Assembly: GCF_000970025.1 (NCBI RefSeq)
Contig: NZ_CP009528.1
Location: forward strand, 3,893,168 to 3,957,167
Reading direction: 5' to 3'
Length of the DNA stretch: 64,000 nucleotides
DNA from: Methanosarcina barkeri MS
Lineage (GTDB): Archaea > Halobacteriota > Methanosarcinia > Methanosarcinales > Methanosarcinaceae
Positions 14,311-29,006 of this stretch are shown piece after piece. Position 1 is the first letter of the stretch; each line of letters starts with the position of its first letter. Position numbers and translations under genes: made by a program. The notes beneath the pieces are model-generated. The model was not told where the DNA came from. It saw only the letters and a program-made list of their open reading frames with translations, and ran no database searches.

Positions 14311-14362
14311 AAATTGCAATGACTAAAATAAAATCGAAGTAATATAAGACTGGGGGATTATT

Positions 14363-14758
14363 ATGGATAAAATCAACAATCTCAGAACGAAACCGGTTGA
14401 CGCAAATTTTGAACACTTTAACATTAACCCAGAAAAAACTTTTGACACTGACCTGGGTTTTCCTGAAGAAGTAAGAGACTATCATTATCGTTCAACAGAT
14501 TTCAGGAATATCTGGTATTATTTAGGACTATTGTTTTCTATGTTATTAGATTCTTTTAAAGGGAGATACCCGCTTCCAAAGAAAACCGCATTATTGCTAA
14601 TATTCGCTTTTCTGTACTTAATAAGTCCAGTTGACATCATTCCAGACGTTTTTCCTTTAATTGGACTTGTGGATGATGTCGCAGTACTTGTTTTTTCACT
14701 TAATTTTATTAGAAGCGACCTAGAAAATTATAGAGCCTGGAAAAATTATAGTAACTGA
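14363..14758 (+). CDS. DUF1232 (YkvA-like) membrane protein
   Basis: A 131-residue protein with the DUF1232 signature in its second half: LPKKTALLLIFAFLYLISPVDIIPDVFPLIGLVDDVAVL. The ISPVDIIPD-x(6)-G-x-x-DD pattern is diagnostic of the family, whose function is unknown and which is membrane-associated. The N-terminal 60 residues are polar and specific to this protein. Start ATG 14363 is preceded by gggggatt. It probably forms a two-gene unit with the upstream membrane protein. Confidence 0.8.
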   Translation: MDKINNLRTKPVDANFEHFNINPEKTFDTDLGFPEEVRDYHYRSTDFRNIWYYLGLLFSMLLDSFKGRYPLPKKTALLLIFAFLYLISPVDIIPDVFPLIGLVDDVAVLVFSLNFIRSDLENYRAWKNYSN

Positions 14759-14890
14759 AAAACCAATATTGAAGCTTAATTGCCTGGGATATAAGTCTAA
14801 GAAAAAAACGTCTACAATTTTTGATTTCATACATTGAGTGCATAAATCCGAGATGAAAAAATTTACCTATTTACTTTTTGTCAACCTTCA

Positions 14891-15000
14891 GTTTATCTTT
14901 TGTTTATCTTTTGTTTATCTTTTGTTTATCTTTTGTTTATCTTTTGTTTATCTTTTGTTTATCTTTTGTTTACCTTTTGTCTATTTTCTGTCTACCTTTT
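14891..15000. repeat. 11-bp tandem repeat, about 10 copies
   Basis: The unit gtttatctttt is perfect in seven copies from 14891 and degenerates over three more (gtttacctttt, gtctattttct, gtctacctttt). Frames through it (FIFCLSFVYL-type) look like hydrophobic proteins but are artefacts. Confidence 0.95.
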
Positions 15001-15031
15001 TATCTTCTGTCTACCTTAAGATTATACATCC

Positions 15032-15730
15032 TCAGTTACTTTCAGGAATGCTTGAATTTGTTATTTTCCAGTAAGTTCTCATTCCATTGCAAGTTAAATA
15101 CGCACCTGCAGACACCTGAATTAGTATCAAGACAAGGGACAGCATATCCACACCGGAACCCATTGCACTCACTAAAATTATAAATTTGATCAGAGAATTC
15201 AATAAATTCAGAACTCCTAGAATTCCAGGCAATATTATCGAAATTACAAAGAAAGGTGACAGTAAGATAAGAATAAATCTTGATTTTGACAGTACTTCTT
15301 ATGAATAAGCAAATCCACCAAAATAAGTAATTCCTAAAAACGCTTTGTCCGAAGTTAGAATATCTGGAACAAAGATAAGATGAAAAAGTTCATGAGTGAA
15401 AATAATAACTATACTCAACCCGATAAAGTATACAAAGTCTTGTAAGTCTATTGTTACTGAGATTTTCGAGGGACTGATACCAAAATATACAAAAGAGAAA
15501 GGCGAAAATATATCAAGGATTTTAAAAGAAAGCAGAGCACCAAGGATCATTAGTGGGATTGCTACGAACATAACAGGCACAATATTTGGAGGTTCACGCA
15601 GCTGTATCCAGTTATTTGCAATTAGTTCGGAATGCCTTTCAAGATTTGTTTTAGGTAACCTCTTTCTTAGCCGGATAATACCGCCTCTTCTTATATTAAT
15701 ATCAGTATACTGAAAACCTATTGTTTCACA
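15032..15730 (-). pseudogene. DUF3267-like membrane metalloprotease gene with a nonsense codon
   Basis: One open frame from about 15730 down to TAA 15032-15034 is cut by a single in-frame TAA at 15299-15301. Before it: NWIQLREPPNIVPVMFVAIPLMILG, then the zincin-like THELFHLIFVP and YFGGFAYS. After the stop, in the same frame: EVLSKSRFILILLSPFFVISIILPGILG and a final membrane helix. Together these give the usual DUF3267 layout of HExxH plus four membrane segments. No ATG is present near the N-terminus; the first start-like codon is GTG 15578-15580. The stop is ochre, not amber, so pyrrolysine readthrough does not apply. This is a recent pseudogene. Confidence 0.75.
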
Positions 15731-16052
15731 TTATAAAGAAATATATTTTATTATAATGTAGTAAATTATTGTCTATATATTCTATAATTATTTATCATAA
15801 GGAAAATTTATTCTATTTATTATATATATTCATCCGCAGTATCAGATTTTATCCATGTTTTTGATTGCAGTATAATATACCGGAATAAATGTATCCATGC
15901 TTTTGATTGATTACAATATAATATACCGGAATAAATCTAAGCTTTGAAAATCCGATTTTGAAAATCCGATTAAATGTTAGAGGGATGAAAAATAAAGATA
16001 TGTACCTGAAAATAGTTCAGTAAATATATTACTGTGAGTGGAGGGCAGTACA
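15731..16052. other. AT-rich intergenic region with a roughly 40-bp direct repeat
   Basis: No gene is seen. Two adjacent copies of a 40/44-bp unit (15851-15890 and 15893-15936) share tataatataccggaataaat, and ttgaaaatccgatt occurs twice near 15946-15973. They lie directly upstream of the chagasin-like gene and include TATA-like sequence, so they may affect its promoter. Confidence 0.5.
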
Positions 16053-16475
16053 GTGTCAAAATTTGGATATGGAATAACAGTTTTGATTGTATGCTTAGTT
16101 CTGGCGACGCTTCCAGCGGCTGTATGTGCTAAACCTGACATAGCAAGTCAAAATAAGATGATAACCGAAAATGACAACGGAAATACCATTTATATTAAAG
16201 AAGGACACTCTTTTTTCCTTAAGCTTAAAGAAAATCCGAGCACGGGCTATTCCTGGCAACTCAAGCTGAGTAATGGACTTAACCAGCTCTCAGACAAATA
16301 CCACCCCTTTGAATCTTTAGAAAATAATTTAGTTATTGGCACAGGTGGGTTTCGCTTATGGAGAATTGAAGGTATAGCTAAAGGAGATCAGCAGGTAAAC
16401 GCAATATACAAAAGATCTTGGGAGCCAAAAACAGGCCAGGAACAGACTTTCAAACTTAATATTGTAGTGGTCTGA
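16053..16475 (+). CDS. Secreted chagasin-like (I42) cysteine-peptidase inhibitor
   Basis: An exported small protein with all three loops of the I42/chagasin inhibitor family: NPSTGYSW (about residues 61-68), GTGGFRLW (96-103) and KRSWEP (near 120-125, the RPW-like loop). Family members block papain-like cysteine peptidases by wedging these loops into the active site. The N-terminus MSKFGYGITVLIVCLVLATLPAAVCA is a signal peptide. I choose GTG 16053 because ggagg at 16040-16044 lies 8 bases upstream; a GTG at 16038 would overlap that site. The target could be a surface peptidase of the cell or of a competitor; this is inference. Confidence 0.85.
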   Translation: MSKFGYGITVLIVCLVLATLPAAVCAKPDIASQNKMITENDNGNTIYIKEGHSFFLKLKENPSTGYSWQLKLSNGLNQLSDKYHPFESLENNLVIGTGGFRLWRIEGIAKGDQQVNAIYKRSWEPKTGQEQTFKLNIVVV

Positions 16476-16484
16476 GCCAAACTC

Positions 16485-16670
16485 TCAATCTAAAATCTTT
16501 TTTCTCTTTATGTTATGTAAAACTCGATTGAATGATATCTGTATCACTTTCCGGCTTTTTTCCCCCTTTGTATAAGAGCCAAAAACAGCTAATCTTCGTT
16601 GCTCCGCTGTTTTCAAGGAAAGAAGAAATTTTCGAACAAGTCTTTTTTCGGGGCAGTGTTTTCTATGCAA
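16485..16670 (-). pseudogene. Relic of an MNT-type nucleotidyltransferase antitoxin
   Basis: The fragment reads VRKFLLSLKTAEQRRLAVFGSYTKGEKSRKVIQIS. It aligns with the intact MNT protein at 31931-32227 ([34 protein letters not shown]), including at DNA level. The catalytic GSY-x-(K/R)-GE is recognisable, but the D-x-D pair is gone and the flanks do not continue the domain. It is a decayed copy. Confidence 0.6.
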
Positions 16671-16797
16671 ATATATTTCTTTGTGATCATTTAAAGTATG
16701 CTGAAGTTAAAAATGAAGACCATTGAAGGAGAAAACAGAGCCCTATGTAAAGACAGCAGTTTTTCTATACTTTCTCCCACCTCAAAAAAGAAATATG

Positions 16798-17310
16798 TTA
16801 TGTTATTCCTGCTAATTCAGACGCTTTCTGAAGGTGGCCTGTACCGGAACTGCGAAGTGTTCCGGCCTTTTGGAAATTTTCAGCTCCTACAGTGCCATTT
16901 TTCGCTTCATTTGCTCCCTGCAACAAAAACTGACCTGCAGAGTTATAGTCCTGAAGAGCCAACCTCCATTCTTTCTGCGCATCCTGGAGTTTGGGAGATA
17001 CGGTATATTGATCATTTTCCTGAATGGCGCTCTGAGTATCATTTACTATGTATTGTGCATACACTGCGAGCATGGTATAATTAGAATTGTTTGTCGCGTT
17101 AGATACACCGTCCAGATCTGTTTTAAGTATCTTCAAATGCTTCTGGACATTAGTTCCCCATGCAATATCCTGGTAGGCTGACTTGAGGGTGTTCAGCGGC
17201 GAATTTAGTTGAGCCTGAGAAACATTATCACCGTTTTGTGATCCGGCGAAGCCGATGATAATCAGTACAACTAGTAAAATAAATAATGTGAAGTAGATGT
17301 ATTTTTTCAT
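16798..17310 (-). CDS. Secreted helical protein, paralogue of the lipoprotein at 37.5 kb
   Basis: About 170 residues with an N-terminal membrane anchor or signal (KKYIYFTLFILLVVLIIIGFAGS) and a polar, helical outer part. I start it at ATG 17308-17310, preceded by aggggtg; a GTG six bases upstream is possible. The segment SPKLQDAQKEWRLALQDYNSAGQF matches SSKFQKAQNEWDIILNDYISAAEF in the 37516-37989 lipoprotein. The two define a small family: export signal, two or three helices, and a conserved Q-x-EW-x(4)-x-DY-x-SA core. Function unknown; extracytoplasmic location is well supported. Confidence 0.7.
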   Translation of the reverse strand: MKKYIYFTLFILLVVLIIIGFAGSQNGDNVSQAQLNSPLNTLKSAYQDIAWGTNVQKHLKILKTDLDGVSNATNNSNYTMLAVYAQYIVNDTQSAIQENDQYTVSPKLQDAQKEWRLALQDYNSAGQFLLQGANEAKNGTVGAENFQKAGTLRSSGTGHLQKASELAGIT

Positions 17311-17448
17311 ATACACACCCCTAAAAATTCAGTATATACTATATAAATTTAGAGAGGATGTATTATAAGATTTCCATTCACACATCGTTGGTTAAGCATA
17401 AAATCCCATCTTCTGTATACGTTTTTATAAGAATATAAGATAGACAGC
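17311..17448. other. Intergenic, promoter side of the secreted protein gene
   Basis: AT-rich and without a gene. An IS relic follows at 17449-17690, then about 240 bases of AT-rich DNA lead to the operon starting at 17929. Confidence 0.3.
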
Positions 17449-17690
17449 AATGCTGACATTGATCATTAGCAGAAGAATATATTCTCGTATATATTCTCGT
17501 GTAAGAAACTCAACTGCTAATCCTGAAAAAATGGCTAAATATACACAGTTGCGTTAGAGTACTGTATTTGCAAAGAATACATCAGATTTGTTGACAGTAA
17601 TTCTGCATAGATGTGAAATTAAGAGAACTTTTGAAACGATAACGAGCGTATATGAAAGTCAAGCATTAACGGAGCAAATGATGAGCTAAT
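17449..17690 (+). mobile_element. Relic of an IS4-family transposase C-terminus
   Basis: The plus strand encodes a decayed copy of the C-terminal part of the transposase at 35.4 kb: LTLIISRRIYS, then STANPEKMAKYTQLR, a TAG where the intact copy has Trp, then STVFAKNTSDLLTVILHRCEIKRTFETITSVYESQAL. The bases tatattctcg are duplicated near 17485. No catalytic part or inverted repeat remains, so it cannot move. Confidence 0.8.
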
Positions 17691-17928
17691 TTAGTGGTCA
17701 TATAGGAAGATCACTTCCTAGATGACAATATTTATATGTTTGTATCTTTATTGAAATAATTGATATTCCACTAAACAAGAACAAAAAACAAGGGCTGGTG
17801 CAAATGCGGAATTGGCAAGATTTAATAACATAAGTTTTTTCCTTAATGAAAGTCCCCTCTAAAAATTTTAATATGAATGCCATAAAAGGAGATAAGATAC
17901 TGTTCAAAAACATATCAGGTGGAATGAT

Positions 17929-19161
17929 ATGAAAGCAATTGATGAAACAATGAGTATATACCAGATCTTAAGTGACTATCCTTTTCTGTTAAAAATATTC
18001 AAACAGCATGGGATGGAGAAATTTGAAAATAAGGAAGTTCTTGAAAAGCTTGGTCCTTTACTAAAATTGAAAACAGCCCTCTCAATGGTATCGGTGAATA
18101 AAGACTCTTTTATTGAGCTCCTGAATCAGGCTGTTCTGAACAATGAAGCAAAAGGAGATTTTACCCTTGCAGACTCCCCGGAACGACAAAAAGAGCTGAC
18201 CCTTCTTGCCCTTTTACCCTGCGGCATGAAGATGCCTTTTAACCGTGCACTTGATGATTTTTCATCTGAATACAGCCGACAAATGAATAATGTACTCCAT
18301 TCTCTTGTCGAAGGTAATGTCAATCATGAGCTCTCTTATTATGCCTATATCGATTCGGTTACATCGATTGACGAACTTCCGGATATAATCATCAGCTCTG
18401 ATATCAACAGCTTCTACCACAAACCCTTCCAGGAGAATTTTCTCAATAAGGAATATTTTGTAAATCTTAATTCATCCCCAATGAACAGTGATTTTGAGTC
18501 TATCGGTTTTGCCGATCCTCGTGGACAGTTTACCATGATCTCTGCAAACCTTCTGGTTCTGGTTACAATAGATGAACTCATGAAGGATGATAGCAAACCG
18601 GAGTCCTGGGAAGACATCTTAAAAGAGGAGTACCGGAATAAGGTTGTTATGAGGGGGCAGGACGGCTTTTTCTGTAATGGGGTACTGCTTCCGTTCTACC
18701 GGCTGTACGGTATGGAGGGAATTAAAAAGCTTGCTTCTTCAGTATATACAGGAATCCATCCGTCCGAGATGGTTAAAATGATAGACAGCAAAAAGGATGA
18801 CGTACCACCTATGTATATCATGCCTTACTTCTTTGCTAAGAAAATTCAAGATAAATCCAGGATAACAATCAATATACCTTCGGAAGGTGCTATTGTAAGC
18901 CCTGTGCAGATGCTGGTTAAAAAAAGTGGTGCAGAGCGGGTTAAGGAGATCACGGATTTCTTCTGTGGGAAAGAATTTGCGAAAATTTCTGCCAGAGCTT
19001 TTTTCCCGACAACAAATCCTGAAGTTGAAAATAATCTTGAAGGAATCAAACTCTATTGGCTGGGCTGGGACTTCCTGATGAACAATGACATAGGAGCACT
19101 TAAAAAAGAGCTTGAAGGAGTTTTCAATAAACAGTTCTATGAAACTGGAGGTATTGTGTGA
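17929..19161 (+). CDS. Cytosolic DUF1858-like / substrate-binding-protein-like protein (trio gene 1)
   Basis: A 410-residue protein, first gene of a tight three-gene operon. Residues 1-60 (AIDETMSIYQILSDYPFLLKIFKQHGMEKF) resemble DUF1858/ScdA N-terminal domains. The rest looks like a type 2 periplasmic-binding-protein fold of the iron/spermidine group: PDIIISSDINSFYHKPF, GFADPRGQFTMIS, SWEDILKEEYRNKVVMRG, IPSEGAIVSPVQMLVKKSG and FFPTTNPEVENNLEG. There is no signal peptide or lipobox, so unlike true transporter binding proteins it should stay in the cytosol. The next gene overlaps it by 4 bases. With a GTPase and a soluble ABC ATPase alongside, a role in handling or inserting a metal or cofactor is a reasonable guess, but unproven. 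Confidence 0.65.
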   Translation: MKAIDETMSIYQILSDYPFLLKIFKQHGMEKFENKEVLEKLGPLLKLKTALSMVSVNKDSFIELLNQAVLNNEAKGDFTLADSPERQKELTLLALLPCGMKMPFNRALDDFSSEYSRQMNNVLHSLVEGNVNHELSYYAYIDSVTSIDELPDIIISSDINSFYHKPFQENFLNKEYFVNLNSSPMNSDFESIGFADPRGQFTMISANLLVLVTIDELMKDDSKPESWEDILKEEYRNKVVMRGQDGFFCNGVLLPFYRLYGMEGIKKLASSVYTGIHPSEMVKMIDSKKDDVPPMYIMPYFFAKKIQDKSRITINIPSEGAIVSPVQMLVKKSGAERVKEITDFFCGKEFAKISARAFFPTTNPEVENNLEGIKLYWLGWDFLMNNDIGALKKELEGVFNKQFYETGGIV

Positions 19162-19853
19162 GGCTTGTTACGGTAGCAGGTCCTCCATCCTCAGGAAAAA
19201 CCAGCATCATTATCAAGACCATTGAAGAGCTTGAACAGAAAGGTTTCACAATCGGTGTGGTAAAATTTGACTGTCTCTCGGCTCAGGATGAGGAACACTA
19301 TTCAGCTCACAATATTCCGGTCAAGACCGGTCTCTCCAGAGGACTCTGTCCTGACCACTTTTTTGTAAGCAATATTGAAGAAGCCCTCAGGTGGGCCAAA
19401 GAGAAGAAGTTTGATTTTCTGATTACCGAGAGTGCAGGTCTTTGCAACCGCTGTTCTCCACATATTAAAGATGTTCTGGCAATCTGTGTTATTGATAACT
19501 TGAGTGGTGTCAACACACCTAAAAAAATCGGCCCCATGTTAAAACTTGCAGACATTGTTGTTATTACTAAAGGGGATATTGTCTCCCAGGCAGAACGTGA
19601 GGTCTTTGCATACAGGGTCAGACAGGTTAACCCCAGAGGAATGATAGTTCAGATTAATGGTGTTACAGGACAGGGTAGTTTCTATCTTGCAAAACTTGTG
19701 GAAAAAGCCTCTACGTTGGAAACTCTTCAGGGAGCTACACTTCGATTTACCATGCCTGGAGCTCTATGTTCATACTGTCTTGGAGAGAGAAAAATCGGGG
19801 ATGACAAGCAGATTGGGGTTTCAAAGCTGGTAAATTTCAGAGGAGAAGAATAA
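19158..19853 (+). CDS. HypB/UreG/CobW-like GTPase (trio gene 2)
   Basis: A 231-residue SIMIBI-class GTPase. The P-loop GPPSSGKTS is at residues 8-16, a switch region contains DCLSAQDEEHYSAHNIPVKTG, ITESAGLCNRCSP parallels the 'ENVGNL'/'ESGG' Walker B segment of HypB and UreG, and VVITKGD is the base-recognition motif. It is rich in Cys: C-x2-C (CNRC, near residue 100) and CSYC near residue 205, plausible metal sites. HypB and UreG deliver nickel, CobW-type proteins cobalt or zinc. The GTG start at 19158 overlaps the previous stop (gtgtga), implying translational coupling. The metal or cofactor served is unknown. Confidence 0.75.
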   Translation: MRLVTVAGPPSSGKTSIIIKTIEELEQKGFTIGVVKFDCLSAQDEEHYSAHNIPVKTGLSRGLCPDHFFVSNIEEALRWAKEKKFDFLITESAGLCNRCSPHIKDVLAICVIDNLSGVNTPKKIGPMLKLADIVVITKGDIVSQAEREVFAYRVRQVNPRGMIVQINGVTGQGSFYLAKLVEKASTLETLQGATLRFTMPGALCSYCLGERKIGDDKQIGVSKLVNFRGEE

Positions 19854-19872
19854 ATTCAGGGAGAAGAATAGC

Positions 19873-20886
19873 TTGCGAACAGATTTACTTCATATGACGA
19901 TAAATGAACTCAGGGAGATGATGCCCTGGATAGAGGACTATTTCTCTGCATTTGCAATTGATCCTGTGCAGTTCGGGAACATAAAACTGGAAGAACTGGG
20001 TTCAACACCTGGTGAAGATTATTTTGTAGAGATGGGAAGCAGCTCTCTCGCCTTTATTGATGGTTTCTTTCTATTTATTGAGCAGGCAAAAGCTCTTCAA
20101 CAGGGCAGCGGATCCACAGTTGAATCCCTGACAGTGCTCCCTGGACGTAATAAGAATGGTGAAAAAGAAGCCTTTTCGGTAAATCTAAAAAAAGGTGAAG
20201 TGACTGCAATTGTCGGTCCTACAGGATCAGGCAAGTCCCGTCTTCTGGCTGATATTGAATCTCTGGCTCAGGAGGATACTCCTACAGGCCGAAAAATACT
20301 GGTTAATGGCCGGGCTCCAGGTGATGAGGAGCGTTTCTCGACTGAGGGGCGTTTTATCGCGCAGCTTTCACAGAACATGAATTTTGTTATGGACCTCAGT
20401 GTCGAGGAGTTTCTGACCATGCATGCCGAGAGCCGTATGGTTGACGAGGTATCTCGTATTGTTCAGAAAATATATGATACTGCAAACATCCTGGCAGGAG
20501 AGCCTTTCAGCAGGGAAACTCCTGTTACGGAGCTCTCAGGGGGACAATCCCGCGCTCTGATGATTGCAGATACTGCACTTCTCAGCCCGGCATCTGTTGT
20601 CCTTATCGATGAGATTGAGAATGCAGGCGTCGACAAGGTTAGGTCTCTGGAACTTCTGGTAAGTAATAACAAGATAGTTTTAATCAGTACTCATGACCCT
20701 CTTCTGGCTCTATCGGCAGACCAGCGACTGGTCATTCAAAATGGCGGGATTTCAAAACGTATAAAAACCACACCGGATGAGAAAAAATACCTGAAGAGCC
20801 TCGAAAAAATAGACAGCAAACTTACTCATCTCCGAAATCAGTTGAGAAGGGGGGAAGAAATTGACTTCAGCGATTTTCTGGTGTAG
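19873..20886 (+). CDS. Soluble ABC-type ATPase with N-terminal extra domain (trio gene 3)
   Basis: A 337-residue protein. Residues 1-90 form an extra helical domain (MTINELREMMPWIEDYFSAFAIDP), again reminiscent of DUF1858-like domains and of the N-terminus of trio gene 1. The ABC ATPase follows with Walker A GPTGSGKS, signature LSGGQSRALMIAD, Walker B VVLIDEIENAG and the switch STHD. No membrane segments exist here or in the operon, so this is not a normal transporter ATPase; it is closer in logic to soluble ABC proteins that remodel partners. The start is TTG 19873 after gggagaagaa; ATG 19894 is an alternative. It lies 19 bases after the GTPase gene. Confidence 0.7.
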   Translation: MRTDLLHMTINELREMMPWIEDYFSAFAIDPVQFGNIKLEELGSTPGEDYFVEMGSSSLAFIDGFFLFIEQAKALQQGSGSTVESLTVLPGRNKNGEKEAFSVNLKKGEVTAIVGPTGSGKSRLLADIESLAQEDTPTGRKILVNGRAPGDEERFSTEGRFIAQLSQNMNFVMDLSVEEFLTMHAESRMVDEVSRIVQKIYDTANILAGEPFSRETPVTELSGGQSRALMIADTALLSPASVVLIDEIENAGVDKVRSLELLVSNNKIVLISTHDPLLALSADQRLVIQNGGISKRIKTTPDEKKYLKSLEKIDSKLTHLRNQLRRGEEIDFSDFLV

Positions 20887-20979: not shown

Positions 20980-21198
20980 TCACTTAACTCCATCAAATCT
21001 TCCCATTGTGCCGCCTGTAATATCTTCAAGTTCCTCAGCCTCAAGACAGACCTGTATTGCTTCTTTTATACGTTCCATAGCCTGCTCAACTGTTTTTCCT
21101 TGAGTATAACAACCCGGTATGTCAGGAACCCTTGCAATATACATCTCATCTTTGTCCTGTTCGATCAGAACCGTATAACTCAAGCTCTCGCCTTCCAT
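20980..21198 (-). CDS. HicB-like antitoxin-type protein
   Basis: A small protein with the HicB/UPF0150 partial RNase H-like fold: YTVLIEQDKDEMYIARVPDIPGCYTQGKTVEQAMERIKEAIQVCLE. HicB proteins usually neutralise the HicA mRNA interferase. No HicA gene is seen on either side, so this is a solitary member, as is common in methanogens. The frame opens earlier (to 21261), but the extra N-terminus is unlike the family; ATG 21196-21198 (MEGESLSYTVLI) fits. A second HicB copy at 31362-31550 is similar. Confidence 0.75.
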   Translation of the reverse strand: MEGESLSYTVLIEQDKDEMYIARVPDIPGCYTQGKTVEQAMERIKEAIQVCLEAEELEDITGGTMGRFDGVK

Positions 21199-21623
21199 CT
21201 TTACCAGAATAACATTTAATCTGTGAGTACTTAAAGCTGCTACCGGCAGAACTATTGACAAGAATTGGCTGAAAAAAAGCAGAAGCCGAAGTGATATAAC
21301 TTTTTTATTATATTTCCACCCCAGCCCTCCTAAAATTATTCGATTAGAGGTTCTTCGATTGCGCCGCTAACTTGGAATTTATCTATTCCCAAAGCATTAC
21401 AGCAGAAGATTGAAATTTGTCACAGAAACATTTAAAGCCTACTTGAGTTTTTCCAATAAGTAGAACTCAATAAATGTTTAATGTATTTGCTAGAGGAATA
21501 TCCAGAATAAACAGTCGAAAGCAAAACAGGAAAATATAATTAAAGGATATAGAAGCTTTATATTATCTAAATATTTTTGAGAAATTAATGAGTTCAGAGT
21601 CAAAAAGTTAACGGGAAGATCAA
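21199..21623. promoter_or_regulatory. Divergent intergenic region before the STAND gene
   Basis: AT-rich, with no gene seen. It separates the HicB gene from the 1295-residue NTPase gene and should carry promoters for both. A purine-rich site (acgggaagatca) lies just before ATG 21624. Confidence 0.35.
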
Positions 21624-24600
21624 ATGAGCTTTGGTGGAATTGCCGATGGACTTTTAGCCAATTCATTATATGATAGTGCCAAAAAAATAATTAAAAAATA
21701 CCATGATACTTACGCAGATGTCCTTGATGATTCAATTAATAAGGTGACACCAAAACACCCAAAGTTGACAAAGATTCATATTGATAGTTTTTTATATGAA
21801 TCTCCTGCAGAAAACTTAATGAAGAATTATATCGAACATCCAGAAAATTATATTAATTCTTCAGAAAAGAACTTATTTGGTGAAAAACTTATAGAAGAAT
21901 TTATTACTTATTTTGACGAAGGATATTTTTCGAGAGAAGAAGCTACAGAAATTATAACTAATTTTCTAAATATATTAGATTATAATGTTCAAAAAAATCC
22001 AGACTTAAGAGATAAATTATTATTAGACTATGAAAAAGATACAAACCAAGAGCTCAAAAAACATATAGAAGAATGCCAAATTCATTTAAAATCTTTTTTA
22101 ACTGCAGAGGAATTCTTCTCTCGTTCCCTCGAAAGTACAAACTTATTGAACCATAAATATCACTTTGTAGGTCGAAGTGATATCTTATCACAGTTAGATA
22201 GTTTCTTAGAATCTGACAAAAAGATAGCCCTTTTACCTGGAAGGGGAGGCATTGGAAAAAGCAGAATACTTTTTGAATTTGGGAAAAATTTTGAATTAAA
22301 ACACAATGAATGGGAACTAAGATACGTTAGTGAAAGTCCATTAACAAAAGAGTCAATTCGTGAATTGCCTAAAAGAAAATGTACTATAGTAGTAGACGAT
22401 GCCCATCGAAGAGAAGATATTATTACATTACTAGAAACAGCTCAACAAGCCGAAATTATAATAAAGTCCCCAATAAAAATGATTCTGGCTTTCAGACCTC
22501 ACGGACTAAATTATATTAAAAGCAGCTATAGTAAATGCGGATTTGATACTCGCAAGATTGAAGAGATTTCTGAAATTGGGGAGCTTAAAAGAAAAGAAAA
22601 AGAGGAACTTGGAAAAAGTATACTTGGATCAAAACATCACGAATATTTAGAACCGTTAATTAAAGTAGCCAAAGACTCCACTATAGTTTTAGTTATTGGA
22701 GCAAAACTTATTGCAGAAAATAAAGTACGGCCAGCTCTTTTAGAACAGGACGAAGAGTTTCAAAATGCTGTTTTTAGTAGATTTCAGGAAGACATATTAG
22801 CAGGAATTATTAGTGATGATCTTGACGCAACTTTTTGTAGAGACCTGCTTTCCATCATATCCATTCTATCTCCAATCCAAAAAGACAATGGATTCATTGA
22901 AAAGACGGCCAAATTCTTAGAGGTAAAAAAATCGAAGATTAATATATCAATTAATACTCTAGAAAGAGGCGGATTGCTCTATCGTGTGGGATCTAAACTC
23001 AGGATAACTCCCGATGTTTTGTCAGACTATATATTACACAATTCATGTATTACTTCAGATGGCTATTCAACTGGGTACTCTCAAGAAATATTCGAAGCTT
23101 TTGGAGATACATATCTCAAGAACATTTTAGAGAATTTGTCAGAACTAGACTGGCGAGTAAATAGACAAAATAGAGAAACTGATCTTTTAGTAGAAATATG
23201 GAATAATATAGAAGAAAAATTCAAAAATTCATCAAACTTAGAGAAAGTAGTCTTATTGAATAAATTTGAAAAAGTAGCTTATTTTCAACCCCAGAGGATA
23301 CTGCACTTAATTAGATATGCAATTAACAACCCAATAAACAACCCAATTAACAAATCCAAAAGTGATTATGCACCATTATATGAATTCACTCATAAAGATG
23401 TATTAAGGACAATTCCCCCATTATTAAAAAATGTTAGTTACAATTTTGACTACTTTCAACAGTCTTGCGGACTTCTTTGGAATTTAGCTAAAAAAGAAAT
23501 AGAGATAAAAAATGGAGGTACTGCTTCTAACCATGCATTGACAGTACTCATAAATTTGGCCGAATATCAAATGTACAAATCTTTTGAGTATAGTTCCCAG
23601 ATTATTACTTTTGTTGAAAAAGAGATAAATAATCATACAGATCCTAAATACACATGCTCACTCTTAGATATACTTGATCCAATACTAGAAAAAGAAATAA
23701 TATTTGATAAGCCTATAGGAGCCGAGATACAGTTTATACCTTACCCAATTCCTTATAAAAATACAAAAGAGATAAGAAGAAAAGCCATATTATTAATAGA
23801 AGCTCAGTTAAAATCTGAATCAACTAAATTAACACTAAGAGCATTGAAAAGTCTTTCACAGGCTTTAAGATCACCTACTGGTTTTTATGGAAGGAAAGTT
23901 TCTACTGATGAAATTGAATCATGGCTTCCAGAACAAAGGAAAATACTTAATATTATAGAGGATATTTCCAAAATTACTACAGATCCTATTATAAAGATCC
24001 AGATAAAGTCTTCACTTGCATGGCATGCTAGACAAACTATCCAACCAGAAGTTAAAGATAAAGCCAGCTCAATCATAAAATTTCTGCCCGAAGATTTTGA
24101 GATCAGACTTGTGAGAGCTATCTGGTATCATTATGACAAAGATTATGAGAACTTTAAGGAGCATCAAGAGGAAGTAATCCAAGAAATAAAAGAGGTATCT
24201 AAAGGATTTTTGGAGAAATGTGATAATGAAGGGGGAAAAGTATTCAATGCTCTTAATAAGATAATTACCAATTTTAAAATTAATGAGATTTTAATTTATC
24301 CATCAAACTTCTTGAGAGTCCTTTGCGCTACAGATAAAGAAGTTGCTTCTGAAGTCTGTAATCACATTATGTCTGATACATCAAAGCCTTTAGCTAATTA
24401 TTTAGAGTTCTTATTATCAGGAATTAGAGAAAAAGACGAGGCTATGGCTATAAAGTTAACAGAAATTGCTGTTGATGGCAGTGATCCTATTTTATGTCAT
24501 TCCATAGCAGAAGGCTATGCACACACAGGATGGGCGTTTAAAATAAAAAATGAAGAAATCAAAATAATTACACAACTACTAAGTTCTGTAGATGCAGACA

Positions 24601-25511
24601 TAAGAAACCTAGCTATTGAATCGCTTGGACACTTCCCCAATACCTTGAGGGATGAAGCTATTGAGCTTGCTTTAGGTGTTGAAATTGGGGAGGACGAAGA
24701 AATAGCTGATACTTATTGTGGTATATTTAATCCAGAGTATGGCATTCCACCTGAGAGTTTAGATGAAGCACAACTAGGGTTCATTCTTAAAAAAGTATGT
24801 CAAGTCCACGTACTTGAAAAGAATTTATATGACTTAAACATTTTTCTAACATATTGCAGTACCAAAATACCTGAGGAATTGGTTGATGTCCTTTTGGAAA
24901 GAGTAGATTTGTCCAAGAAAATAGAGCATGGTACAAGTAACCGATTTCAGCCTTTACCTTATAACGGTTTTTACGACAAAGGATTAAATGGGATATCCCT
25001 TAGTTCACATTATAAAAATATTCTTCGAAAAGTTAGAGATAGATCGTTAAATCCAGATTTGAAAGACTCTTTTTGGCTCCCAAAGCTATATTCGTATATT
25101 TCAGAAAATATTTCATTGACTAGTCTTGAAGTTCTCAATGAATGGGTAGATACTGGAGATGAAGAAAAAATAAAAACAGTTGGACTTTTAGTCAAAGAAG
25201 CACCTTCAACCTTCGTGTTTTCACATTCTGGTTTTGTTTCAAACGTACTTGTGAGTGCGCAAGCGATTAGTGACGACTGCTACGAAGAAGTAAGATCTGA
25301 TCTATCAAACTCAACTCTTTATGGAGGAAGGACAGGACTCGTTGGTGAACCAAGTTATGAAGATCAGAATGTTCGTGATAGAGCTCAAGAATTTATGGAA
25401 AAGTATCCAGTTGGATCACCTACATGGAACTTTTACAAATGGCTCTCTGAAGAAGCAAAAAAATCAATAAAAAGTTGGCTAGAAAGCGATGAAGAAATGT
25501 TAGAAGACTAA
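21624..25511 (+). CDS. STAND-type NTPase with helical-repeat C-terminus (candidate defence protein)
   Basis: A 1295-residue single-gene protein. Residues 1-175 form an unrecognised, mostly helical N-terminal domain (GGIADGLLANSLYDSAKKII). The NTPase begins with FVGR at 181-184, a hallmark of STAND/AAA-like ATPases; Walker A GRGGIGKS is at 206-213, Walker B TIVVDDAH at 254-261, and MILAFRP near 280 is a sensor-like Arg. A winged-helix-like region follows (ISINTLERGGLLYRVGSKLRITPDVLSDYI, about 440-475). The remaining 800 residues look like HEAT/ARM-type helical repeats. This effector-NTPase-sensor layout is that of antiviral STAND proteins and of NLR-like receptors. Codon use is strongly AT-biased against the neighbouring lhr gene, suggesting transfer. 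No partner gene lies downstream. Defence is inference. Confidence 0.7.
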   Translation: MSFGGIADGLLANSLYDSAKKIIKKYHDTYADVLDDSINKVTPKHPKLTKIHIDSFLYESPAENLMKNYIEHPENYINSSEKNLFGEKLIEEFITYFDEGYFSREEATEIITNFLNILDYNVQKNPDLRDKLLLDYEKDTNQELKKHIEECQIHLKSFLTAEEFFSRSLESTNLLNHKYHFVGRSDILSQLDSFLESDKKIALLPGRGGIGKSRILFEFGKNFELKHNEWELRYVSESPLTKESIRELPKRKCTIVVDDAHRREDIITLLETAQQAEIIIKSPIKMILAFRPHGLNYIKSSYSKCGFDTRKIEEISEIGELKRKEKEELGKSILGSKHHEYLEPLIKVAKDSTIVLVIGAKLIAENKVRPALLEQDEEFQNAVFSRFQEDILAGIISDDLDATFCRDLLSIISILSPIQKDNGFIEKTAKFLEVKKSKINISINTLERGGLLYRVGSKLRITPDVLSDYILHNSCITSDGYSTGYSQEIFEAFGDTYLKNILENLSELDWRVNRQNRETDLLVEIWNNIEEKFKNSSNLEKVVLLNKFEKVAYFQPQRILHLIRYAINNPINNPINKSKSDYAPLYEFTHKDVLRTIPPLLKNVSYNFDYFQQSCGLLWNLAKKEIEIKNGGTASNHALTVLINLAEYQMYKSFEYSSQIITFVEKEINNHTDPKYTCSLLDILDPILEKEIIFDKPIGAEIQFIPYPIPYKNTKEIRRKAILLIEAQLKSESTKLTLRALKSLSQALRSPTGFYGRKVSTDEIESWLPEQRKILNIIEDISKITTDPIIKIQIKSSLAWHARQTIQPEVKDKASSIIKFLPEDFEIRLVRAIWYHYDKDYENFKEHQEEVIQEIKEVSKGFLEKCDNEGGKVFNALNKIITNFKINEILIYPSNFLRVLCATDKEVASEVCNHIMSDTSKPLANYLEFLLSGIREKDEAMAIKLTEIAVDGSDPILCHSIAEGYAHTGWAFKIKNEEIKIITQLLSSVDADIRNLAIESLGHFPNTLRDEAIELALGVEIGEDEEIADTYCGIFNPEYGIPPESLDEAQLGFILKKVCQVHVLEKNLYDLNIFLTYCSTKIPEELVDVLLERVDLSKKIEHGTSNRFQPLPYNGFYDKGLNGISLSSHYKNILRKVRDRSLNPDLKDSFWLPKLYSYISENISLTSLEVLNEWVDTGDEEKIKTVGLLVKEAPSTFVFSHSGFVSNVLVSAQAISDDCYEEVRSDLSNSTLYGGRTGLVGEPSYEDQNVRDRAQEFMEKYPVGSPTWNFYKWLSEEAKKSIKSWLESDEEMLED

Positions 25512-26105: not shown

Positions 26106-29006
26106 TCATTCCCAGAACTTCTTCGTCTTCACATAATTCCTTTCCGCAACCAGAATATCCCTGTAAAATGCCTCTTCGTCCACCCTCATTTTTTCAATAA
26201 CCCTTGACGCCGTTTCAGGCCCAACCCCTCTGCTCGCAAGCGCAATAACCGCCTTTTTTCCCTGCGAATGCACTATACTCGCGTTTCTATAAACTCTCTG
26301 TATCCGTTTCTTTTCTTCAGGGGTAACCTTAACCTTTTTTGCCTGTTTTTTGACAAGGTTGATTTCCTCTTCTTCCCAGGGTTTGAGGGCTGCAATCATC
26401 CTGGACTCGCAGACCGGGCAGACGATTTCTTCAGGGACGTTCTTTACCTGCCGGCGGGAAGTCCATTTCTTGCAGTTCGTACAGAATAGAACGATTCTGT
26501 CGTTCATAATGCGTTCCTTAAGTGCAAGCACGATTGATCGGTCGGCTTTCTCCGGTGCGACCAGGTCTTTTTTCATGGCAAAACCGGCTGAACCGATTGG
26601 GGTTGGAAGGGAAACTTCAACTGAAATCTCGCCGGCTGCAAGTTTTGTAAGGACTTCTTTTGTCCTCGGGACGTCAAGCAGGTCGTGAAAGATTTCCCGA
26701 ATAACCTCGTCGTACATTGAAGATCCCTGGTAGATTTCCAGCAGCTTTTTCATGCTGATCCGGTCGTAGTCAATGTCCCGGGAAAGGGCTCCGAATTTTC
26801 GGGCAACGTGAACCATTTTCCATTTCATCAGAGTTGTGTTTTTCAGGGTCATTTCTATGATCGGCTCAACGTGTTCGGGACGGAGGGAGAGAAGCATATC
26901 CCGAATCTGGAAAGAGCCTACCCGGCGCGGAAGGGTCAACCGAATCCTGTAGGGGTCGACTTCCTGGGCGACACTGCTCCCGAAGCGGGCTGAAAGAAGT
27001 GAGGTCAGGACTCTCGCAAGAGTGCCGTTTGTGTTATGGCCAAAACAGGCGTTCAGAGTCACAGAATCTCCTTCGTCTTCGATCACAATCGTGCTCGCAT
27101 CAGGCAGGGGGAAGTCTCCTTCTACGTGTTCACGTACCAGGCGGATTAATTCGAGCACTGCATTTCTTGTTACCGGATATTTCGCCTGAAGCTGTTCGGC
27201 AATAGCTTCATCGTCAAGTTCTGCGCGGATAAAAGCTGCAATTTCCGCCCTTAGCTTTCCTACATCCTGAGCGACCTCAAAAGGCACAGGGATTTCTTCA
27301 CCGGTCCAGCTTGGAACCTCACCCTTACCTTCCACGGGCTCGACTTTGATTCTGTCCTTTCCCTGCTCGCGGTCAGGCATCTCAACGACCCGCCACATGT
27401 AGCCTTTCGTTATGAAAACGGCGCCCTGTTCCGCAAAGTTTACGACAAAGGCTTCATCCAGCACGCCGACTGATTTTCCACTTACAATATCATAGATCTC
27501 GTACTTCTTTTCGTCCGGGATCATGGAAAGGTTCTCGTAATAGTATTCCCGGCTTTTCCTGCGCCTCTTGACGATATTTGAACCTTTTTCATGCCAGACA
27601 AGTCTGTAATCCCCTATCTGGTCCACAACCCTTTGCAGTTCTTCAAGCTGCAGATCCCGGAATGGGTACGTCCGTTGAAGAATCCTGAGAATTTTATCAA
27701 TTTCAATCTCCCCGAAATCCATAACCATGCCTGCAATCTGATTTGCCACGACATCCAGGGATTTTATATGCGGAGAAACCTCTTCCACCCTGCCTTCCAG
27801 TGCAGCTTTCGTAATTGCCATACTTTCTGCAGTATCGTCGACTTCCATAGAAACGATAGTGCCTCGGGAAACAGAATGCAGCTTATGCCCGGCTCTTCCG
27901 ACTCTCTGGAGCAGCCGTGAAACCTGGCGTGGAGACCCGTACTGGACCACCTGGTCGACGTTTCCGATATCGATTCCAAGCTCCATTGACGAGGTGCAGA
28001 TAAGGCCTTTCAGGGCTCCGGATTTGAAAGCTTCCTCAGCTTCCACACGGGCTTCAAAAGAAAGCGAGCCATGGTGTACCCCTATGGATGTCCCGAGTTT
28101 CCGAAAACCGGTAGCTAGAGCTTCGGCACTCTGCCGCGTATTTACAAAAATAAGAGTGGACTGACTATCTTCGACAATTTTCCGGATGCAGAGCAGGTGA
28201 GAGGCAAATTCAGGCTCGCAGCCAACTGTTTTTGCAATTTTCAAGACTTCTTTTTCCTGTATTTTTCCTTTTTCTGAAACCTGAGGGTTGACAACATCGA
28301 ACTCAAGCAGTTTCAACAGGGCTACCTCAATTACAGTGAAATCCCTTCCATTGCCTGCCAGGAACTTTGCAATTTCCCAGGGGTTCCCGACTGTTGCAGA
28401 AAGCCCGATTCTCTGGAACTCGCCTGAAATTTCCACAAGCCTCTCAAGCCCAACAGCCAGCTGAGTTCCACGTTTTGAACCTGCAAGCTCATGGATTTCG
28501 TCTATCACGACATGAGTCACGGTTTCAAGGTTCTGGCGCAGGCGGGAGCCGGTAAACATTGCCTGCAAGGTCTCAGGAGTAGTGATCAGTACATCAGGGG
28601 GATTTTTCGACTGGCGCTGTCTTTCACTTTGCGGAGTATCCCCATGCCGAACCTGGACTTTGATGTCGAGCAACTGCCCGAGGATTTCAATACGAGAAAG
28701 CATATCCCTGTTAAGTGCCCTCAATGGAGTTATATAAAGGGCTGAGATTCCCTTTCTGGCTTCAGGTTTCTTTTTCAGGATACTATCAAAAACAGGCAGC
28801 ACGGCTGATTCGGTCTTGCCTGAACCCGTAGGAGCTATCAAAAGAGTATGCTTTCCATCCATTATGTGAGGAAATGACCTTTCCTGAGGTTCTGTGGGTT
28901 TTGTAAAGCCAAGAGTTTTGATGGCTTCCTGAATCTTTGGGTGAAAAGTATTAAAGATGTTATGAAACGTCATGTTTTTGTAATCAGTTTTGGTTAAATT
29001 GTTCAA
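26106..29006 (-). CDS. lhr: Lhr-type superfamily 2 helicase
   Basis: A 966-residue ATP-dependent nucleic-acid helicase of the archaeal Lhr-core type. RecA domain 1 has [17 protein letters not shown] (motif I), TPLRALNRD (Ia), [16 protein letters not shown] (DEIH, motif II) and GLSATVG (motif III). RecA domain 2 has [29 protein letters not shown]-like motif V and [11 protein letters not shown] (motif VI). The winged-helix and Lhr core domain follow, and a zinc-binding Cys set (CTNC-x(14)-CPVC) sits near the C-terminus. Archaeal Lhr enzymes act in DNA repair and recombination. The start ATG gives a normal length. The last 98 codons also occur as a broken copy at 25549-25842. Confidence 0.9.

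Follow-up and report, generated by a model that had tools for sequence, protein, structure and literature searches.

The genome of Methanosarcina barkeri MS (assembly GCF_000970025.1) harbors a three-gene operon at positions 17929-20886 of the window, which encodes a protein that resembles substrate-binding proteins (SBPs), a GTPase related to HypB and UreG, and an ATP-binding cassette (ABC) ATPase, without any membrane-protein gene among the three. The window, i.e., the whole stretch of DNA that was analyzed, comprises 64,000 nt of contig NZ_CP009528.1 (3,893,168-3,957,167). The genes for the SBP-like protein (410 aa; 17929-19161), the GTPase (231 aa; 19158-19853) and the ABC ATPase (337 aa; 19873-20886) are all located on the plus strand, as are the features of the operon and its upstream region described below; the first two open reading frames (ORFs) share the 4 bases GTGA, and a spacer of 19 bases precedes the third. 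The ORF coordinates and alignments confirmed the anatomy that a first-pass annotation had read from the DNA, including this overlap and spacing, the lack of a membrane gene and the presence of Cys pairs in the GTPase. The SBP gene is single-copy in the M. barkeri MS genome, and among named relatives Methanosarcina spelaei is the nearest, with a GTPase that is 93% identical. Conserved among anaerobes, the trio encodes a soluble module of three parts that probably serves metallocofactor delivery.

Proteins encoded by the operon

The SBP-like protein was matched by the Pfam families DUF1858 (residues 4-62, 17938-18114, 44.5 bits; solved homologue 2fi0) and SBP_bac_6 (221 bits), and its predicted model (predicted local distance difference test, pLDDT, 90) places a type II binding-protein fold after DUF1858, with PhnS, FutA/FbpA, P5PA and AfuA as the nearest folds in Foldseek (E 1e-14 to 1e-11). 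A Kyte-Doolittle scan of the N-termini detected no signal peptide in the window SBP or in its relatives: the top 19-residue mean within the first 60 residues was 1.55 among 78 relatives, and it ranged from 1.4 to 2.9 in exported ModA/FecB neighbors taken as controls, which mostly had a membrane or signal segment. The absence of an N-terminal hydrophobic segment in the window protein and its relatives bears out the earlier proposal of a binding protein without signal peptide. The type II SBP fold is common to this protein and the periplasmic SBP_bac_6 proteins (FbpA/FutA, PhnS, P5PA, AfuA), whereas the trio SBP is cytosolic, has DUF1858 in the place of the signal peptide, and has Cys98, Cys249 and His277 as candidate ligands instead of an invariant Tyr. 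Ferric-binding proteins bind through tyrosines, and an FbpA-type ferric-binding site was rejected, since no Tyr was invariant across the SBP alignment.

Cys98 (codon 18220-18222), located in a loop of the predicted structure right behind the first SBP-domain strand, was found in 77 of the 79 alignment rows, and His277 (codon 18757-18759) was invariant or nearly so. Cys249 (codon 18673-18675) is confined to the branch of the window protein, here termed the nif-side branch, where it was present in 29/29 sequences, with Phe at the same position in 40/40 sequences of the other, Hcp-side branch; Arg242, Asn130, Asn132, Asn160 and Tyr137 are likewise branch-specific. According to the predicted secondary structure, Cys98, Cys249 and His277 are each situated after a strand at the start of a helix, the usual ligand-contact position in the cleft, which makes them candidate ligands.

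The GTPase matched the Pfam family cobW (49.6 bits) and is predicted to be a P-loop SIMIBI G domain with HypB/UreG topology and a Cys/His metal site after switch I. Its scores were far below the curated NCBIfam cut-offs for HypB (53.5 versus 121.2 bits) and UreG (34.8 versus 204.2 bits), and it is therefore a distant relative that is neither HypB nor UreG, although the six best PDB matches of its model (pLDDT 86, Foldseek) were UreG and HypB structures. Three motifs, C64-P-D-H67 (19347-19358), C96-x-R-C99 (19443-19454) and the C-terminal C204-x2-C207 (19767-19778), were invariant across subfamilies in a 40-row family alignment. In profile alignments to the metal sites of 2hf8 and 4hi0 (CPH in UreG, CH in HypB), C64 aligned with the metal-site Cys of both proteins and H67 with the HypB His, with a two-residue gap. 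The trio GTPase has the G-domain fold, Walker A and the metal-site Cys(-Pro)-(x)-His before helix 3 in common with the HypB and UreG nickel-delivery GTPases, but it is only 20-23% identical to them, carries two extra Cys motifs (C96xRC99 and C204xxC207), and is encoded together with an SBP and an ABC ATPase rather than with hydrogenase or urease genes. Because of the UreG/HypB fold and the metal-site residues, the likeliest role that can be read from sequence and model is that of a metal-binding, GTP-driven switch.

The ABC ATPase (Pfam ABC_tran, 62 bits) has a complete set of catalytic motifs, as its family alignment retains Walker A (GPTGSGKS, 20215-20238, invariant positions), the signature (LSGGQ, 20533-20547, conserved positions), Walker B with the catalytic Glu (VVLIDE, 20596-20613, D246 and E247 invariant) and the H-loop. 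Its N-terminal 75 residues (19873-20097), on which Pfam made no DUF1858 call, aligned with the SBP's DUF1858 domain in hhalign (probability 96%, E 3.7e-9, single comparison), so that the first and third genes share a docking-like domain. DUF1858-like N-termini on both proteins had been anticipated in the first-pass annotation, and are now supported by Pfam for the SBP and by hhalign for the ATPase. SufC and other soluble ABC ATPases also work without a membrane partner and are encoded beside metallocluster genes; compared with SufC, the trio ATPase belongs to another sequence family, has the DUF1858-like domain, and lacks SufB and SufD.

Distribution of the trio and related gene pairs

Complete or partial loci (81 in total, from partly sampled taxa) were collected via the GTPase, and contained the ABC gene in 77/81 and the SBP gene in 69/81 cases. 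The trio recurs in Methanosarcina, Methanolobus, Clostridia, Desulfuromonadales, Halanaerobiales, Fusobacteria, Deferribacteres and Planctomycetota. Searches of the literature on DUF1858, HcpR, nif and CobW turned up no description of it, in agreement with the earlier suggestion that this combination is new as a trio; it is, however, widespread in anaerobes and not peculiar to M. barkeri MS, and its ATPase and GTPase part had been noted before. Genes for an ATPase, a 'Ni2+ binding GTPase' and a COG2000 Fe-S protein have been reported beside coenzyme M biosynthesis genes, with their role unknown (Chadwick et al. 2025, PMC12068725, Fig 2B legend). The coenzyme M clusters of methanogens indeed contain a paralogous ABC and GTPase pair beside cysteate synthase, ComDE, and HcyBio/MMP16-type and FeS (PF04060) proteins; this pair is homologous to that of the trio (37-50% identity), but has no SBP, no DUF1858-like domain and other gene company. 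Some archaea have a further version without SBP, in which the GTPase and ABC genes are accompanied by DUF364/DUF4213 (putative heavy-metal chelation).

The trio does not have the makeup of an ABC importer, as it includes no exported or lipid-anchored SBP, and a dedicated permease was absent from the operon in the window and found in a minority of its relatives. FecCD, FecB and ModB were encoded in 8/81, 11/81 and 6/81 loci, respectively, in addition to the cytosolic trio and not as a replacement of it. The first-pass annotation had held that a permease and an exported binding protein as usual companions would turn the operon into a degraded transporter; transporters occurred in a minority of the 81 loci, and this objection therefore does not apply. 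At one locus of Methanospirillum stamsii (14316-18600), a second, divergent set (SBP22-ABC-GTPase) is joined to an apparently complete transporter with exported SBP, permease and ATPase.

Phylogeny of the SBP and genomic company

A quick tree of 79 SBP sequences separated, with a support of 100, a large branch found beside hybrid cluster protein (Hcp) and CRP/FNR regulators from lineages linked to nif and mod genes. The sister group of the window SBP (Shimodaira-Hasegawa-like approximate likelihood ratio test, SH-aLRT, 97) comprises SBPs from bacterial loci that also encode NifB, NifE/N, NifX, NifD and NifH; on the nif side as a whole, ModA, ModB and ModE occur as well, with mod genes adjacent in several loci. 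Both neighborhood labels cluster on the tree, to which near-copies contribute, with 4 changes for Hcp (shuffled mean 11.3) and 3 for nif (shuffled mean 8.2).

The nifD gene was present in 18/19 nif-side genomes (the 19th had a weak nifD-family match and was counted as absent) versus 11/31 Hcp-side genomes. Within one order, represented by 136 genomes, it was found in 16/18 genomes with a nif-type SBP versus 60/118 others (Fisher p 0.002), and in 9 of these genomes the nif-type SBP and nifD were within about 12 kb of each other. Among the sampled Methanosarcinaceae, nifD was present in 10/10 genomes with the window-type trio versus 6/32 without it. Exceptions to the association that lack nifD may be incomplete genomes. 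In most Methanolobus genomes an hgcA/hgcB-like mercury-methylation pair adjoins the trio downstream; the hgcA-like gene encodes a CdhD-domain protein with an NVWCAAGK motif (checked in three loci) and is followed by a dicluster ferredoxin gene.

Upstream element

Upstream of the SBP gene lies an operator-like palindrome, GGAAGATCACTTCC (GGAA-N6-TTCY; 17705-17718), followed by a TATA-box-like sequence, TTTATATG (17731-17738). The two arms of the palindrome were conserved in 12/12 archaeal orthologous trios, with the middle six bases varying and the TATA box at equal spacing. The combined pattern GGAAN6TTCYTANAT is expected 0.08 times by chance in the window, and the strict element has one occurrence in the whole genome. 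The reported NrpRI operator of Methanosarcina mazei is GGTA-N6-TACC (PMC3177094). Co-regulation with nif via NrpR is not supported, because GGAA-N6-TTCY is absent from the nifH promoters of the same genomes and differs from this operator. Upstream of the bacterial nif-side SBP genes, a sigma-54 promoter was found in 0/23 cases. The nifH promoters have conserved elements of their own, i.e., AGTACATAGGATTCCGTTGTAC after the TATA box in Methanolobus, and a different element, AGTACAA-GGTTACCGG, at that place in Methanosarcina.

Neighborhood in the window

The trio is adjoined downstream by a HicB-like antitoxin gene (20980-21261, minus strand), followed by genes for a large STAND-like NTPase of 1295 aa (21624-25511, plus strand) and an Lhr/BrxHI-like helicase (26106-29006, minus strand), the latter two possibly representing a defense-type neighborhood. 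A phage or defense annotation was rejected, as it yielded general ATPase matches and nothing specific. Upstream, the window encodes an exported chagasin-family (I42) cysteine protease inhibitor (16038-16475, plus strand), and contains a short tandem repeat (14878-15000) that gives rise to a repetitive ORF (FSLSFVYLLFIFCL...).

Discussion

The UreG/HypB-like GTPase, its CPDH motif on the metal site, and neighbors that include nif, mod, hcp, hgcAB and coenzyme M synthase genes make the theme of metal delivery, which the first-pass annotation had put forward, the likely one; the common thread of these neighbors would be enzymes with demanding metal centers. We propose, with a probability of roughly 0.3, that the trio is a kind of cytosolic machine not described before, whose inward-turned SBP fold carries a metal or metal cofactor and is worked jointly by the GTPase and the ABC ATPase, and which in the branch of the window delivers molybdenum or an intermediate of the iron-molybdenum cofactor (FeMo-cofactor) to nitrogenase. 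Metallocofactor delivery in general is more likely than not, and the notion that the version in this branch serves nitrogenase or molybdenum metabolism has slightly less than an even chance. The metal, the client, the direction and the order of steps are those that we infer. In the cleft of the cytosolic SBP, Cys98, His277 and, in the branch of the window, Cys249 would bind a metal, a metal oxyanion or a ligand that carries a metal. The GTPase would receive the metal or pass it on, with GTP hydrolysis gating the transfer, and the soluble ABC ATPase, in a role like that of SufC, may use ATP to drive the opening of the SBP or of the client protein. The DUF1858-like domain common to SBP and ATPase would serve for docking. 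The sister branch may have hybrid-cluster-protein or nitrosative functions, and the two-gene version would go with coenzyme M synthesis.

Several observations weigh against the proposed link to nitrogenase. The co-occurrence counts are not phylogenetically independent, and the Fisher tests ignore relatedness. In M. barkeri MS a distance of about 250 kb separates nifD from the trio, the trio promoter differs from nifH promoters, and the Methanolobus trio has hgcAB or, once, Hcp as neighbors, but not nif. Most diazotrophic Methanosarcina lack the trio, which is therefore not essential for nif, and in another archaeal family the GTPase/ABC pair is present in three genomes that lack nifD. Moreover, NifQ is present in 5/29 nif genomes. 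The trio is a candidate for the same role as the molybdenum donor NifQ, i.e., molybdenum supply to nitrogenase, in anaerobes without nifQ, but it has no homology to NifQ, and the co-occurrence of both in those five genomes leaves a role as strict NifQ replacement unsupported.

Among the alternatives, a possible though rather doubtful one is that the trio is an iron-sulfur (Fe-S) center repair or nitrosative-stress module, which restores damaged Fe-S or hybrid clusters and whose DUF1858 is related to the ScdA/RIC repair domain. Hcp is encoded beside the trio in 14/81 loci, in several orientations, with CRP/FNR regulators in 7, and a gene of the RIC type (ScdA_N plus hemerythrin) is located near one trio; the trio itself does not have this architecture, and the similarity of DUF1858 to ScdA_N is weak (E 3.6e-5, single comparison; E 0.3 to ScdA). 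Hcp was also found in 46/49 trio genomes, a count that covers trio-bearing genomes only. The Hcp-linked branch is, however, the one separated from that of the window with full support and lacking Cys249, and in the window genome the trio has no Hcp gene nearby.

It is unlikely that the trio forms the cytosolic end of metal-chelate uptake, where it would strip or sort molybdate, tungstate or an iron chelate brought in through FecBCD or ModABC. Genes of the FecB, FecCD and TonB type and ModA, ModB and ModE genes adjoin it in roughly a dozen loci, and the DUF364/DUF4213 partner is consistent with chelate handling, but most loci, including that of the window, have no transporter nearby. As a clue to the ligand, cobalamin, molybdenum-cofactor and NiCo riboswitches were considered, and none was found in eight Fec-type loci.

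Delivery of sulfur or a cofactor to thiol-forming enzymes of the coenzyme M or homocysteine synthase type, with a merely structural metal site, appears quite improbable: the paralogous pairs in methanogen clusters with cysteate synthase, ComDE, and HcyBio/MMP16-type and FeS proteins (PMC12068725) point in this direction, but these pairs are the ones without SBP and DUF1858-like domain, and the window-type trio has no adjacent sulfur-pathway genes. Finally, the view of the operon as an ABC transporter that has decayed or been re-used and has no coherent function was rejected as highly improbable, since gene order and the catalytic and Cys/His motifs are kept across phyla and the SBPs as a set lack signal peptides, even though the SBP and ABC parts derive from transporter families.

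The delivery of molybdenum or a FeMo-cofactor intermediate by the window-type trio would bear on the route of molybdenum to FeMo-cofactor in diazotrophs without NifQ, which is an open question; NifQ is missing in Clostridium, Paenibacillus, cyanobacteria and Frankia (PMC4761190). Likewise, little is known about how anaerobes load complex Fe-S enzymes, among them Hcp and coenzyme M synthase. With one branch linked to nif and mod, another to hcp, and Cys ligands that would be branch-specific, the trio provides concrete genes and residues for testing these processes.

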